DNA of 64,000 bases, taken from positions 251,575-315,574 of the forward strand of contig JAENZE010000002.1 in NCBI GenBank assembly GCA_016841425.1, given 5' to 3'. The notes under the pieces were generated by a model that was not told the DNA's origin, did no database searches, and saw only the letters and a list, made by a program, of their open reading frames with translations. The position numbers and the translations under genes were made by a program. Positions 56,391-64,000 of the stretch are shown here, one piece after another. The number at the start of each line of letters is the position of its first letter. Within the stretch, counting starts at the first letter, position 1. Source of the DNA: Syntrophomonas sp. Its GTDB lineage: Bacteria > Bacillota > Syntrophomonadia > Syntrophomonadales > Syntrophomonadaceae.

Positions 56391-58430
56391 ATGCATACAG
56401 TTATTGCCAGCCATGCAGGTTTTTGTGCTGGAGTTAAGAGGGCCTTTAAGATAGCTGAAGAGACTGCAAATAGTCCTGGAAGATGGTACACACTGGGCCA
56501 GCTGGTGCATAACGAATCGGTAATAGATTATTTTAGACAAAAAGGAATTAACCCGGTTAATAATCTGGATGAAATTACAGAAGGAGCAGGCATCATTATC
56601 AGATCACATGGTGTTGCGCCGGATATAATAAGTATAGCCAAGAATCGGGGATTGAATATAAAGGATGCCACCTGTCCACGGGTAAACAGGGTACATGAAA
56701 TTGTACAAACCCTGGAAGCAGAAGGATATGATATAGTCATTTTTGGTGACCCAGAGCACCCGGAAGTTGAGGGTATATTAGGTTGGTGCGGTGGACGGGC
56801 ATCAGTTGTCTCTGAAATAAATGACATAATGAAACTGAAGGCCTATGACCGGCTGGGGATAGTGTCGCAAACCACTAAAGATGAAAAAGAGTTTTTTCAG
56901 GTAGTGAACAGCCTGTCAGAAATAGCAGGTGAAATCAAGGTTTTTAATACCATATGTTCAGCTACCCAGAGGAGACAGAAGTCAGCACTTGAATTGTGCC
57001 GTGAAGTAGATTTAATGATTGTGGTAGGGGGGGAATATAGTTCCAATACTACTACTCTTTTTAAAGAGTGTTTAAATACCGGGGTTCGAACATACCAGGT
57101 TCAAGATGCAGCAGGGATTAACCCTCAATGGTTTGAGGGGGTTTCGACAGCAGGTATTACTGCTGGTGCTTCAACTCCGGATTGGATTATTAAGGAGGTA
57201 TTGTGTAGGATGACAGAGTATGAGGAAAAGGAAATCCAGGCCCAGGCTCAGGAGCAAGAGGTTGAGTCTCAAGAGCAGGAGAGTAACGTTCAGGAACAAT
57301 CCAGCGAAGAAGCCAACGACGAATTATTTGCCCGTATGGAGGCAGAAATGGCTGAATATGAAACCCCTGGCAGAGGGGATGTTATAAAGGGCACCATTGT
57401 TCAGGTACTTGATGATGAAGTTATGGTGGATGTTGGTGGTAAATCAGAAGGTATTATACCTTTGAGAGAATTATCTTTAACCCCGGTTGATTCTGCCAAG
57501 GACTTTGTGCAGGTTGGCGACGAAATTGAAGTAATGATCTTAAAATGGGATGACGATGGTACGATTCTGCTTTCTAAAAAACGAGTAGATTCCAAGAAAG
57601 TACTGGATGACTTAGAAGAAGTATTCGAAAAGGGTGAGACGGTTCGGGGTACTGTCAAGGACATAGTAAAAGGTGGGTTAATTGTGGATGTCGGTGTGGT
57701 AGGGTTCCTGCCCGCATCCCATGTTGAAGATGGATATGTTAAAAACCTTGATGAATATAAAGATAAAACTTATGATTTCAAAATTATAGAGTTTAATCGT
57801 AATAAAAGGCGTGGTTCACAGGTTGTTCTATCTCGTCGGGAATTGGTTTTGGCTGAAAAACAACAGCAGAAGCAGGATTTTTGGAATAACATCGAAGAAG
57901 GGCAGACCCGTACTGGCAAGGTAAAACGCATAGTTGATTATGGCGCATTTATTGATCTGGGGGGATATGAGGGATTGCTTCATGTATCCGAACTGGATCA
58001 TAAGCGGGTTGAACATCCAGCCGATGTACTGCACGAAGGCGAAGAATTAGAGGTTTATGTACTGGGAGTTGACCTGGAAAAAGAACGAGTATCTTTAAGC
58101 CGTAAAAAGTTGTTAAAGAGTCCCTGGGAGATAGCGGTGGAAACATACTCCGAGGGTGATATTGTGGATGGAATCATAGTTAGAATTGCTCCCTTCGGCG
58201 CGTTTGTGGAGCTGGACCCCGGGGTAGATGGTCTGGTTCATATATCCCAACTGGCTGATTATCGGGTTGAAAAACCAGAGGATGTTGTTTCAGTAAACCA
58301 GCAGGTCAAAGTGAAAATATTAAGTGTTGATGCTAAAGAAAAGAGAATCGGTTTATCAATCAGAGAAGCGCAAAGAGATGAGGAACAGCAAGGGGTAGAA
58401 GACTATATAGCACAGCAGGACCAGGAATAA
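56391..58430 (+). CDS. ispH-rpsA: Fused HMBPP reductase (IspH) and ribosomal protein S1-like protein
   Basis: 679 residues. About 1-275 is IspH (LytB), the last enzyme of the MEP isoprenoid pathway, with cluster cysteines in HAGFCAGVKRAFK (near 12), DATCPRVNRVHE (near 97) and NTICSATQRRQ (near 189). A Gln/Glu-rich linker (about 278-310) leads to four S1 RNA-binding repeats beginning near 328, 415, 504 and 589 (for example GKVKRIVDYGAFIDLGGYEG). The fusion is known from several Clostridia; whether the chain is cleaved is unclear. It supplies IPP/DMAPP for the menaquinone tail, as does fni downstream. Confidence 0.95.
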   Translation: MHTVIASHAGFCAGVKRAFKIAEETANSPGRWYTLGQLVHNESVIDYFRQKGINPVNNLDEITEGAGIIIRSHGVAPDIISIAKNRGLNIKDATCPRVNRVHEIVQTLEAEGYDIVIFGDPEHPEVEGILGWCGGRASVVSEINDIMKLKAYDRLGIVSQTTKDEKEFFQVVNSLSEIAGEIKVFNTICSATQRRQKSALELCREVDLMIVVGGEYSSNTTTLFKECLNTGVRTYQVQDAAGINPQWFEGVSTAGITAGASTPDWIIKEVLCRMTEYEEKEIQAQAQEQEVESQEQESNVQEQSSEEANDELFARMEAEMAEYETPGRGDVIKGTIVQVLDDEVMVDVGGKSEGIIPLRELSLTPVDSAKDFVQVGDEIEVMILKWDDDGTILLSKKRVDSKKVLDDLEEVFEKGETVRGTVKDIVKGGLIVDVGVVGFLPASHVEDGYVKNLDEYKDKTYDFKIIEFNRNKRRGSQVVLSRRELVLAEKQQQKQDFWNNIEEGQTRTGKVKRIVDYGAFIDLGGYEGLLHVSELDHKRVEHPADVLHEGEELEVYVLGVDLEKERVSLSRKKLLKSPWEIAVETYSEGDIVDGIIVRIAPFGAFVELDPGVDGLVHISQLADYRVEKPEDVVSVNQQVKVKILSVDAKEKRIGLSIREAQRDEEQQGVEDYIAQQDQE

Positions 58431-60386: not shown

Positions 60387-60420
60387 GCTGAGAAGCCGCC
60401 CCATAAAGGCGGCTTCTTAT
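60387..60420 (+). repeat. Terminator hairpin, copy 1 of a 34-bp direct repeat
   Basis: GAAGCCGCC and GGCGGCTTC pair around CCATAAA, then TTAT. The same 34 bases recur exactly at 60564-60597. It follows fni by 18 bases. Confidence 0.85.
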
Positions 60421-60563: not shown

Positions 60564-60597
60564 GCTGAGAAGCCGCCCCATAAAGGCGGCTTCTTAT
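60564..60597 (+). repeat. Terminator hairpin, copy 2 of a 34-bp direct repeat
   Basis: Identical to 60387-60420. Two exact terminators flanking the palindromic insert look like a duplication that arose when the insert arrived, or a 177-base tandem duplication that later diverged. Confidence 0.85.
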
Positions 60598-60669
60598 AGC
60601 TTTAATTCTACATAAAAAGGAGCTGTAAGGGAAACATACTCACATAACTACAAGTGAAAGGATGAGTAA

Positions 60670-61452
60670 ATGATGGCTAATTTTCCCTTGGGGCTTATCG
60701 CGCTGCTGGTTGTGTCGATACTTATCTATTTTGGGGTCGCTCACCGGGTATTGGACCGTATGAGGTTAAGTGACCGAGCAGCGCTGGCAATTATAGTTGC
60801 CATAATAGCAGGTAGTTTTGTCGATATTCCAATCAGTTCACGTATCATAATCAATCTTGGAGGGCTAGTAGCTGTAGGACTGGCGGTATATGTGCTGGCA
60901 GGAGCTGGTACGGTATATGAGAAGATCCGAGCTATTGCAGCTGCGGTAGTTACTGCGCTGGCCCTATTTATAGCAGCAAGATATCTGGGGGCTGAACCTG
61001 AAAATATGTTTATCGATCCTATCTATATTTATCCTTTGGTAGCAGGTATAGTAGGTTATTTAGCCGGTCGTTCCAGGAGAGGTGCATTTTTCGCAGCAGT
61101 TATGGCAGTGCTGGCGCTTGATATTGCTCAATACTTTTATTTGGCAAACAGCGGGGTAAGGGGAGTAGTTCATATTGGTGGGGCGGGTGCTTTTGATTCA
61201 CTAATACTGGCAGGTATTCTGGCCGTGCTGCTGGCAGAGCTTATTGGCGAAACCCTCGAAAGAGTTCAAGGTGGGCCAAAAACCGAGGGCAGATCGGAAG
61301 AATTGATAAAGAATCTCAGGGAGCCCGAACCTTCGCGAAAACCCCTGGAAGAAAGCAATAAAGGTCAGGAACCTGGACCTGAAGAGAGAAAGCATGATGA
61401 TGATAAAAAAGATGGGGATGACTCGGAGGAACGGGGTGATATTTATGCCTAG
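60670..61452 (+). CDS. DUF1614-type membrane protein
   Basis: 260 residues. About seven membrane spans occupy residues 1-195, for example LGLIALLVVSILIYFGVA (near 7) and LILAGILAVLLAELIGETL (near 178-196). The conserved LSDRAALAIIVAIIAGSFVD lies near 33-52, with IPIS after it. The tail from about 200 is highly charged (Glu, Lys, Asp repeats such as HDDDKKDGDDSEE) and lies in the cytoplasm or mother cell. Matches the DUF1614 family, of unknown function but common in spore formers. ATG after AAAGGATGAG. Its end overlaps the SpoIIP-like gene by eight bases. Confidence 0.78.
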   Translation: MMANFPLGLIALLVVSILIYFGVAHRVLDRMRLSDRAALAIIVAIIAGSFVDIPISSRIIINLGGLVAVGLAVYVLAGAGTVYEKIRAIAAAVVTALALFIAARYLGAEPENMFIDPIYIYPLVAGIVGYLAGRSRRGAFFAAVMAVLALDIAQYFYLANSGVRGVVHIGGAGAFDSLILAGILAVLLAELIGETLERVQGGPKTEGRSEELIKNLREPEPSRKPLEESNKGQEPGPEERKHDDDKKDGDDSEERGDIYA

Positions 61453-62503
61453 AAAGAAACTCCTCGCCATAGCTTTGATTACGGGTTTATGGTTTAATCT
61501 GATTGCTGTTTCTATAAGTACAGCCAATGAAGAGATGCCCTCTGGGCAATATTTTACCATGGTTGACGAGAATAACAATATTATTCATCAAACTGGAATG
61601 ATAGTCAGTGTAGGAGATGAATATATCAGTGCAGATAATGCTCGATACAAAGTAGTGAATATTGAGGGTGACATTGCCATCTGTACGTATCAGGGTGAAG
61701 AGAGGATGCCAGTAGTAGGATATGATACTGCTACCCAGGCCTGGGTTCTTAGAGGTCAGGAAGTACCAGTTCTGGCTGGAGAAAAGAAGCCTGCTATTGC
61801 TGTTTACCATACTCATAGCGATGAATCTTATGTACCTTCAGACGGCAAAGAGAGCATAGCAGGAAATGGAGGTATTTATGATGTGGGTCAGGCTTTTGTA
61901 AACGAGCTTAAGAAGTTAGGCTTTGATGTTAAATACAACAAGAATAATCATAATCCACATGATATCAATGCCTACACCAGATCCAGAAAAACCGCGGTTT
62001 CTCTCTTGAAGCAGGAGAATCCAGATGTAATTGTAGATGTACACCGGGATGCTGTACCTGCTGATGTTTATGAGGCTGAAGTGGAAGGTGAGGATGTTAC
62101 CAAAATCAAGCTAGTGATAGGCAAACAGAATCCCAATATGAAGACAAATCTGGAATTTGCCAAGAAAATAAAGGCAGTTATGGATAAACAGAATCCAGGT
62201 CTTTCCAACGGTATTTTTATAGGCAAGAGCGACTTCAACCAGGATTTAAGCCCCAGGGCCATATTGATAGAAGTGGGGGCACATACCAATAGCAAACAGG
62301 CTGCATCAGAGGGTGTAAAATTGTTTGCCAGTACTATGAAATCGGTAGTAGGTGGATCTTCAGGGGACAGCCAGAGTCCGGCTGCCAAGCCTTTAAACCA
62401 GGATAACCAGGGCTCCTTTACTACCATTCTAATTCTTCTAGTAGTAGTTGCCGCTGCAGGTGGAGGCTTTTATCTCTTGAACAAAGGGTCAAGCAGTAAA
62501 TAA
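61445..62503 (+). CDS. SpoIIP-like stage II sporulation amidase/endopeptidase
   Basis: 352 residues from ATG 61445 (in frame with earlier ATGs, but with GGGGTGAT upstream). A signal anchor (LLAIALITGLWFNLIAVSIS, about 5-24) is followed by a beta domain. The SpoIIP catalytic domain has AVYHTHSDESYVPSDGKES (near 118-136, metal His), VDVHRDAVPAD (near 199) and AILIEVGAHTNS (near 271, catalytic Glu). Such proteins hydrolyse septal peptidoglycan during engulfment. Unusually a second membrane span, ILILLVVVAAAGGGFYLL, closes the protein near 328-345. It lies between DUF1614 and YIEGIA genes, not next to gpr as the classical spoIIP does, so it is a paralogue. Confidence 0.82.
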   Translation: MPRKKLLAIALITGLWFNLIAVSISTANEEMPSGQYFTMVDENNNIIHQTGMIVSVGDEYISADNARYKVVNIEGDIAICTYQGEERMPVVGYDTATQAWVLRGQEVPVLAGEKKPAIAVYHTHSDESYVPSDGKESIAGNGGIYDVGQAFVNELKKLGFDVKYNKNNHNPHDINAYTRSRKTAVSLLKQENPDVIVDVHRDAVPADVYEAEVEGEDVTKIKLVIGKQNPNMKTNLEFAKKIKAVMDKQNPGLSNGIFIGKSDFNQDLSPRAILIEVGAHTNSKQAASEGVKLFASTMKSVVGGSSGDSQSPAAKPLNQDNQGSFTTILILLVVVAAAGGGFYLLNKGSSSK

Positions 62504-62504
62504 T

Positions 62505-63395
62505 ATGGACAACTATGATATAGTGATAGCTGCTGGAATAGCTGCCGGATCGTTGAACAGATGGCTGTTATTGCGCAGCGATTACCGTCATTATCCAACC
62601 TATCCCCACGGTCAGCTCATTCATCTGGCACTGGGGTTCATTGCTGCCAGCCTAGGAGCTGTAGCTGTCCCGGCAATAGCTAAACCTGATTTTGTAGCGG
62701 TAACGTTTTTAGTTCTGGCCGCCCAGCAGTTTCGTGAAGTAAGGAATATGGAGCGGGAAACTCTCACGAAACTTGAGGAGAGCAAGCTTATCAGCAGGGG
62801 AACAGACTATATAGAAGGGATAGCCAGAGTTTTTGAAGCCCGGAATTATCTTACCATCATGACTGCACTGCTTACCAGTGGAGCAGTGCAGTTGTGGGGA
62901 TGGAAATATGCCTTTATTATTGGACCGTTAATTATGATATTGACCCTAAGACTTATGAGTGGTTCATTTATAGGAGACATTGCCGAAGTAAAGAAGGGCA
63001 CAGTCCATTTTAAAGGATCATTGCTTATGATCGAAGATGTAGTAATTATGAATGTAGGTCTACCCCAAACTCGGAAAAAAATAATCGAAGAAGGTATGGG
63101 GGTTATTATAAAACCTTTAGACGATAATGCCAGGCTAAACCTGGATGCTCCCGGGCAGCGAAAAGCTATTGTTCATGATGTAGTATCAATTTTAGGCAGT
63201 AAGGTTGATATAAATGAAACTGAGTTGATGCCCATGGCTAGAAAACAGGTTGACAAAGGTTATCTGGCCTTTTTTATAGTAGCCAATGAACCGGATCTGG
63301 AGATGTTGATAGAAATTGTCAAAAGAGTGCCGGTACTGGAGTCGACCCGGGGAACTACTCTTTTGAGCTACTTTGGCAGAAAGGCGGCAGATTAA
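62505..63395 (+). CDS. YIEGIA-family membrane protein
   Basis: 296 residues. The family name motif is present literally in RGTDYIEGIARVFEARNYL (near residues 98-116). About four spans lie in the first 155 residues (for example GLNR-like GIAAGSLNRWLLLRSDYR, then LIHLALGFIAASLGAVAVPA). A soluble domain follows with VVIMNVGLPQTRKKIIEEG (near 183) and DLEMLIEIVKRVPVL near the end. The family is confined largely to spore-forming Firmicutes and has no settled function. It starts one base after the SpoIIP-like stop, and its small partner gene follows by one base. Confidence 0.85.
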   Translation: MDNYDIVIAAGIAAGSLNRWLLLRSDYRHYPTYPHGQLIHLALGFIAASLGAVAVPAIAKPDFVAVTFLVLAAQQFREVRNMERETLTKLEESKLISRGTDYIEGIARVFEARNYLTIMTALLTSGAVQLWGWKYAFIIGPLIMILTLRLMSGSFIGDIAEVKKGTVHFKGSLLMIEDVVIMNVGLPQTRKKIIEEGMGVIIKPLDDNARLNLDAPGQRKAIVHDVVSILGSKVDINETELMPMARKQVDKGYLAFFIVANEPDLEMLIEIVKRVPVLESTRGTTLLSYFGRKAAD

Positions 63396-63396
63396 A

Positions 63397-63591
63397 ATGA
63401 ATACGGGCTTAAACGAATATATCCTGGCTATCATAACCTGTGACCTGGATAAGGTCAAGAGTGGGGGCTGCCCGGTATTTCTTGCCTCTGACCAGGAAGA
63501 AAAGGAAAAAATAAGTTTGCTCCTGGCCCGTATTCTGGGAGGAATAGTGCATGATTTAGAAAATGGTATTTACTTTATATGCAAACATTAA
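63397..63591 (+). CDS. Small partner protein of YIEGIA (capping-complex-subunit type)
   Basis: 64 residues from ATG 63397, one base after the YIEGIA stop. The start MNTGLNEYILAIITCDLDKV and GGCPVFLASDQEEKEKISL (near 23-41) are typical of the small proteins annotated as capping complex subunits for YIEGIA. No signal or span, so probably cytoplasmic. Co-translation with the membrane protein suggests a complex. Assignment rests on context plus remembered family features. Confidence 0.7.
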   Translation: MNTGLNEYILAIITCDLDKVKSGGCPVFLASDQEEKEKISLLLARILGGIVHDLENGIYFICKH

Positions 63592-63662
63592 AACAACAAA
63601 AAGCTGCGGATCGAAGAAGGCTCATCAGATAAATTCTGGCTTAACTATTGGGAGGTGCGGTT

Positions 63663-64000
63663 GTGAAAGTAATTTATCATTGTTATGGTGGAGCACATTC
63701 ATCGGTTATGGCAGCTGCCCTGCATCTTAAGATAATAGAAAAACAGCGCTTGCCTACTGAAGAAGAAATGATGGCTGTACCATATTATGATAAAACTGAT
63801 AATGGCGATTTTGGTTCTATCCGCTTTATGGGTATAGATGACAGCGGCAACGAGGTGTATGTGCTGGGTAAAAAAAGCATGGGTGATAAATACAGTCGAA
63901 TTCTTATGGGAGTGGCCGAAATTCTTGGAGCCGGCGATGAAATAATAGCCATCGATTGTTTAAACCGGGTCAATATGAGCATGAAACTGGGCGGTTTCCT
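63663..64000 (+). CDS. DUF3189-family protein, 3' end outside window
   Basis: 112 codons visible, running off the edge. GTG 63663 with GGGAGGTG upstream. VIYHCYGGAHSSVMAAALHL (residues 3-22) has a P-loop-like Gly/Ser/His start. DKTDNGDFGSIRFMGIDDSGN (near 41-61) and VYVLGKKSMGDKY (near 63) agree with DUF3189, whose function is unknown. Neighbourhood with YIEGIA and a SpoIIP-like gene again points to spore formers. Confidence 0.78.
   Translation, partial: MKVIYHCYGGAHSSVMAAALHLKIIEKQRLPTEEEMMAVPYYDKTDNGDFGSIRFMGIDDSGNEVYVLGKKSMGDKYSRILMGVAEILGAGDEIIAIDCLNRVNMSMKLGGF

Follow-up and report, generated by a model that had tools for sequence, protein, structure and literature searches.

Genes for DUF1614, SpoIIP and YIEGIA (YphB) have been described as neighbors, with a proposed role in membrane remodeling, by Makarova, Galperin and Koonin (2015; PMC5898192); its arCOG02159 corresponds to the DUF1614 family on our own reading of the anatomy and neighbors described there, not by the paper's statement. 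Bacillus subtilis yphB, which encodes YIEGIA, is under sigma-F control, as cited in PMC12017682, and proteomics of the spore inner membrane has detected a YIEGIA protein of Bacillus cereus (PMC8624511). SpoIIP itself is a forespore protein controlled by sigma-F in Clostridioides difficile and a mother-cell protein controlled by sigma-E in B. subtilis, and the arrangement of the wall-cutting complex across the septal membranes, which differs between the two species, is openly unsettled (PMC6934232). A literature search, mainly of open-access papers, returned no paper naming DUF1614 or DUF3189, and the terms SpoIIP paralog and SpoIIP homologs were not found. Here we describe an operon at positions 60670 to 64000, on the plus strand, of a 64,000-nucleotide stretch of a Syntrophomonas sp. 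genome (the window), encoding in order the Pfam families DUF1614, SpoIIP, YIEGIA, YIEGIA_cap and DUF3189. The link to sporulation and the gene neighborhood were known beforehand, and a common membrane-remodeling task for SpoIIP, DUF1614 and YIEGIA has been suggested in print (PMC5898192); what is new is a SpoIIP paralog, here called SpoIIP2, its membrane anchor, the co-occurrence with DUF1614, the promoter, and the two-unit structure of the operon.

Our preferred reading, held with somewhat better than even confidence, is that the operon forms a forespore-side peptidoglycan-remodeling unit with SpoIIP2, DUF1614 and an accessory pair, YIEGIA and its small partner. The genome carries three SpoIIP genes: one with lepA and murJ in its vicinity, which we treat as canonical (L006, 8526-9581), one standing alone, and one in the operon. 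In maximum-likelihood trees, the locus-linked SpoIIP proteins formed a clade of their own apart from the canonical ones (98/98, and 100/99 in a wider sample), and the 16 single-copy SpoIIP proteins checked fell outside it and had no C-terminal span. On the evidence of these trees, SpoIIP2 is an ancient paralog, not an ortholog, of canonical SpoIIP. A preliminary description of this DNA had pointed to an unusual SpoIIP with an extra C-terminal membrane span, and both points were borne out: the span is universal in the subfamily, present in all 95 locus-linked SpoIIP2 proteins (75/75 plus 20/20 from YIEGIA-less loci) and in none of 42 other SpoIIP proteins (22, the 16 single-copy proteins and 4 further canonical ones), and it marks the ancient paralog clade. 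That description also had the enzyme doubly anchored, of which the N-terminal half is doubtful. A span is present at that end of the sequence, but the N terminus of the window's SpoIIP2 (residues 1 to 27) resembles a signal peptide, with predicted cleavage after Ala27 (SISTA/NEEM), so SpoIIP2 of this species is probably anchored by its C terminus only. An AxA-like cleavage site followed by polar residues, counted by a crude rule and not by SignalP, was present in 28 of 30 Syntrophomonadaceae SpoIIP2 proteins, 17 of 45 other SpoIIP2 proteins and 5 of 18 canonical ones; SpoIIP2 in Desulfotomaculum-like relatives may be doubly anchored.

The catalytic residues of the window's SpoIIP2 are all present (His122/His124, Glu127, His200 and Glu276), and HxH, Glu, His and Glu are invariant in 75/75 SpoIIP2 proteins, except for the first His of HxH (63/75); the predicted activity is that of an amidase/endopeptidase. 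No solved SpoIIP relative was found by sequence. In SpoIIP2 proteins from outside the Syntrophomonadaceae, a cytosolic tail often comes after the span, resembling STGS...K...EF..F.G (for example, at loci L067, L077, and L205), and since this tail is kept in YIEGIA-less genomes too, it is probably not a docking site for YIEGIA. The lone third SpoIIP (L005:5714-6667, minus strand), a Syntrophomonadaceae paralog, groups with SpoIIP2 as a relative in the trees and has an N-terminal span only; CATAATA-like sites upstream (n = 4) point to a promoter of the late forespore, read by sigma-G. SpoIIP2 merits annotation apart from SpoIIP; the canonical engulfment gene cannot be recognized by a PF07454 hit on its own.

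SpoIIP2 is tied to DUF1614 in both gene order and gene content. A genome scan supplied 80 named loci, to which that of the window was added, and DUF1614, SpoIIP and YIEGIA stood in this order at 74 of the 81, the exceptions being mostly truncated contigs; such conservation is far beyond chance. Six families were searched for in one common set of 199 genomes of the phylum and the resulting sets compared, as raw genome counts in which relatedness is ignored. DUF1614 and at least two SpoIIP genes occurred together in 140 genomes, DUF1614 alone in 5, multiple SpoIIP genes alone in 3, and neither in 51. YIEGIA and YIEGIA_cap occupied an identical set of 93 genomes, four of which have two copies of YIEGIA and also two of the cap; at the loci themselves, YIEGIA_cap was present at 79 of 81, the contig ending directly after YIEGIA at the other two. 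There were 53 SpoIVA-positive genomes with DUF1614 and at least two SpoIIP genes and no YIEGIA, and all 20 of the YIEGIA-less loci read had the arrangement DUF1614-SpoIIP2-DUF3189, with YIEGIA and its partner cleanly gone and, at several, the same promoter retained. Given this clean loss, the operon has a core of DUF1614 and SpoIIP2, usually with DUF3189, and a plug-in of YIEGIA and its partner. The latter are a separate obligate pair that leaves the operon as a unit and is also found alone, as in the second pairs of four genomes, in differing contexts and without SpoIIP or DUF1614 (L213-L216), while DUF3189 is distributed more widely, in a pattern of its own. The earlier picture of one indivisible module was not supported and gives way to two units. 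At one further locus (L218:3795-6960, genome G143), a YIEGIA-partner pair and a gene identified by eye as a PrkA-like sporulation kinase are divergently oriented. No YIEGIA was found in viral contigs.

This division bears on two other explanations. YIEGIA, its partner and DUF1614 could constitute a forespore membrane transport or signaling unit with SpoIIP2 as a hitchhiker in the operon, in keeping with the solitary YIEGIA-partner pairs, with Bacilli that retain YphA-YIEGIA-partner and have no SpoIIP2, and with the most conserved YIEGIA residues, which are charged and probably cytosolic. However, DUF1614 tracks the second SpoIIP across the 199 genomes, not YIEGIA, and is retained with SpoIIP2 at every YIEGIA-less locus read, and we consider this explanation improbable. 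It is very improbable, in our judgment, that the genes form an operon of convenience, with common forespore timing and no common task. The parts are indeed lost separately, since 82 of the 174 SpoIVA-positive genomes have no YIEGIA pair and DUF3189 is distributed differently again, but overlapping or one-base junctions, an order maintained across distant families, and the near one-to-one co-occurrence of DUF1614 with a second SpoIIP all argue for more than shared timing.

The proposed association with sporulation was supported: this gene set is nearly confined to spore formers. SpoIVA was present in 92 of the 93 YIEGIA genomes, and the one exception, G072, assembled in 280 contigs, does have SpoIIP and SpoIIR. 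Of the 24 genomes with neither SpoIVA nor SpoIIP, none had YIEGIA, YIEGIA_cap or DUF3189, and these families are therefore not equally present in nonsporulating relatives; DUF1614 gave a weak match in 3 of the 24.

A conserved forespore-type, sigma-F-like promoter was found upstream of 60670, where the preliminary description had proposed a search for sigma-E, sigma-F or sigma-G promoters. Common to the loci is a motif of the form [AG][CT]ATAW-N13/14-GGGnAAnnTA, about 25 to 50 bases upstream of the DUF1614 start, and its strict form occurred at 33 of 72 loci, whereas shuffled sequences gave 0.4 on average and 3 at most. Upstream regions were also scored with B. subtilis sigma consensus sequences, using dinucleotide shuffles as controls for the operon and spoIIR and base-composition shuffles for canonical SpoIIP. 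A sigma-F score of at least 10/12 was reached at 58 of 70 loci versus about 14 in shuffles, with 56 of the 58 sites lying 20 to 55 bases before the start; the window's promoter matches 10 of the 12 consensus positions. The enrichment was seen within the Syntrophomonadaceae (27/30 versus 6.8) and outside them (31/40 versus 7.5). Overall, sigma-F stood about 9 to 11 standard deviations (SD) above the shuffles at operon upstreams, and sigma-E and sigma-A promoters were rejected on motif scores, which lay within about 2 SD. Canonical SpoIIP upstreams gave the opposite picture, enrichment for sigma-E (z, 0.86 ± 0.17) and not for sigma-F (z, 0.06 ± 0.13). Judged by its bases, the operon motif is of forespore type, with sigma-F favored in the Syntrophomonadaceae. 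The strict motif was absent from 30 spoIIR upstreams, although the spoIIR upstream of this genome shows GTTTA-N15-GGGAATAATT by eye. Genome-wide, the promoter pattern gave 16 sites, the operon included, versus 8 in a reversed control, and is too loose to define a regulon.

In the mechanism that we prefer, the operon would be transcribed in the forespore from the sigma-F-type promoter. SpoIIP2 would be exported and would stay fixed in the membrane through its C-terminal span, placing the catalytic domain between the two membranes, and DUF1614 would be its constant polytopic membrane partner, as SpoIIM is for canonical SpoIIP. Made in the forespore, SpoIIP2 would cut the septal and intermembrane wall from one side, and the SpoIID-SpoIIM-SpoIIP complex of the mother cell (sigma-E) from the other. 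YIEGIA and its 64-amino-acid partner would be a separable membrane/cytosol pair, probably a forespore-membrane accessory or regulator. Since C. difficile SpoIIP is under sigma-F (PMC6934232), a forespore SpoIIP is biologically workable. A function in engulfment appears to be the most likely reading of SpoIIP2.

Several points weigh against this mechanism. Outside the Syntrophomonadaceae, sigma-G is enriched as strongly as sigma-F, and the two are inseparable there; the -10 motif, GGGnAAnnTA, deviates at position 7, where an A is usual; the positive control, pooled spoIIR upstreams, was only weakly enriched (z, 0.48 ± 0.19); the sigma consensus sequences are those of B. subtilis; the analogy of DUF1614 with SpoIIM draws on gene linkage only; and expression compartment, topology, complex formation, and a role in engulfment or septal thinning are what we infer from the observations. 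The sigma-G result would suit a post-engulfment SpoIIP2, under sigma-F and/or sigma-G, whose task is to trim germ-cell wall or cortex while seated in the forespore (inner) membrane, or to ready the spore for outgrowth, as would a B. cereus YIEGIA protein in the mature spore inner membrane (PMC8624511) and the sigma-G-like sites upstream of the third Syntrophomonadaceae SpoIIP. However, the Syntrophomonadaceae motif, that of this genome included, is sigma-F-like and hardly sigma-G-like, and the members of the SpoIIP family studied to date act in engulfment; we regard a late role as unlikely.

A broader plan can be tentatively suggested, to which we give somewhat less than even weight: many spore-forming Clostridia may divide engulfment between compartments, with a mother-cell canonical SpoIIP and an ancient, tail-anchored, DUF1614-scaffolded forespore SpoIIP2 cutting the septal wall from both sides. 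On that view, C. difficile, whose only SpoIIP is under sigma-F, would show one variant of the plan. The conserved presence of another SpoIIP in addition to the canonical gene, with a separate anchor, partner and forespore-type promoter, makes the two-sided model directly testable and may help to explain how these bacteria engulf their spores. DUF1614 gains a likely partner, and YIEGIA and its partner are set apart as an independent unit.

The features of the locus are collected in Table 1. The tight packing reported earlier applies to the first four genes, with an 8-base overlap between DUF1614 and SpoIIP2 (SpoIIP2 ATG at 61445, DUF1614 stop at 61450-61452) and one-base gaps on either side of YIEGIA (62504 and 63396), and not to YIEGIA_cap and DUF3189, for which about 71 bases separate the stop at 63591 from a ribosome-site-backed GTG at 63663. 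Downstream in the genome follow a second DUF3189, a DUF512 radical SAM protein, Der, PlsY, GpsA and SpoIVA. Upstream lies an isopentenyl diphosphate (IPP) isomerase gene, then 301 bases holding the promoter and two copies of a hairpin, which are terminator-like in form and without a good T-run; a terminator scan did not flag them, and we do not claim them as terminators. Farther upstream, 56391-58430 encodes one 679-amino-acid protein in which IspH (LytB) is fused to S1 domains (four stretches matched).

Table 1. Features of the operon and its upstream region (positions in the window)
Feature	Position	Strand	Description
Hairpin AAGCCGCCCCATAAAGGCGGCTT	60393-60415, 60570-60592		Two exact 23-base copies between IPP isomerase and operon
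Forespore-type promoter	60610-60638	+	ACATAA (60610-60615), 13 bases, GGGAAACATA (60629-60638); 31 bases before DUF1614 ATG
DUF1614 (PF07758)	60670-61452	+	260 aa; polytopic membrane protein, 6-7 predicted spans; 31.1 bits (cut-off 23.9)
SpoIIP2 (PF07454)	61445-62503	+	352 aa; SpoIIP-family paralog, predicted amidase/endopeptidase; 188 bits (cut-off 24.4); TIGR02867, 180 (cut-off 123)
SpoIIP2 C-terminal transmembrane span	62423-62479	+	Residues 327-345; Kyte-Doolittle 2.4; paralog hallmark
YIEGIA (PF14045; B. subtilis YphB family)	62505-63395	+	296 aa; 391 bits; membrane helices and cytosolic alpha/beta domain
YIEGIA_cap (PF21835)	63397-63591	+	64-aa soluble partner, obligate YIEGIA companion; 84 bits
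DUF3189 (PF11385)	63663-64000	+	135 bits; runs past window end to equivalent of 64127

The closest relatives of the window's YIEGIA are from Syntrophomonas and other Syntrophomonadaceae, with up to 91% identity. Its AlphaFold2 model (predicted local distance difference test [pLDDT], 86; predicted template modeling score, 0.78) has membrane helices followed by an alpha/beta domain, and no fold match with an E of ≤0.001 was found among solved structures (PDB). Conservation is highest within charged segments (D26YR, R80..ER, RG.DYIEGI, and FEARNY) that presumably face the cytosol. DUF3189, modeled with a pLDDT of 92, occurs as tandem, diverged copies (63663-64000 in the window and L004:7238-8126). 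Its nearest fold, the low-molecular-weight phosphatases, was rejected as an identification, the match being nonsignificant (E, 0.1; TM, 0.33) with no sequence support; the HC[YF]GGxHSSV loop aligns co-linearly with their CX5RS loop, a Ser taking the place of Arg.

The described systems can now be set beside this locus. The neighborhood of Makarova et al. has the same three adjacent genes and the same suggestion of a membrane-remodeling complex; in the accessible part of that paper, SpoIIP is not split from the canonical protein, and neither a C-terminal anchor, a promoter, the partner and DUF3189 genes, nor a two-unit structure is described (PMC5898192). The Bacillus yphA-yphB locus resembles the window in its surroundings: the Bacilli-type locus L217 (genome G128) has the same neighbors, an S1-domain (rpsA-like) gene and IPP isomerase upstream and der and gpsA downstream. 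Both Bacilli-type loci read, L217 and that of Ammoniphilus (L093), have YphA-YIEGIA-partner without SpoIIP2 or DUF3189. There, YphA (PF24124) stands where DUF1614 stands here, and a distant relation of the two is merely hinted at (E, 0.008, under the PF24124 cut-off). C. difficile SpoIIP is forespore controlled, as SpoIIP2 appears to be from its promoter motif, and has a signal-peptide-like N terminus, as SpoIIP2 does here, but it is described as being without a transmembrane helix (PMC6934232). Canonical SpoIIP of the SpoIID-SpoIIM-SpoIIP complex shares family and catalytic residues with SpoIIP2, whereas SpoIIP2 belongs to a separate clade and has a C-terminal span, a DUF1614 neighbor and a promoter that appears to be of forespore type rather than sigma-E type, all in a genome that also carries the canonical gene.

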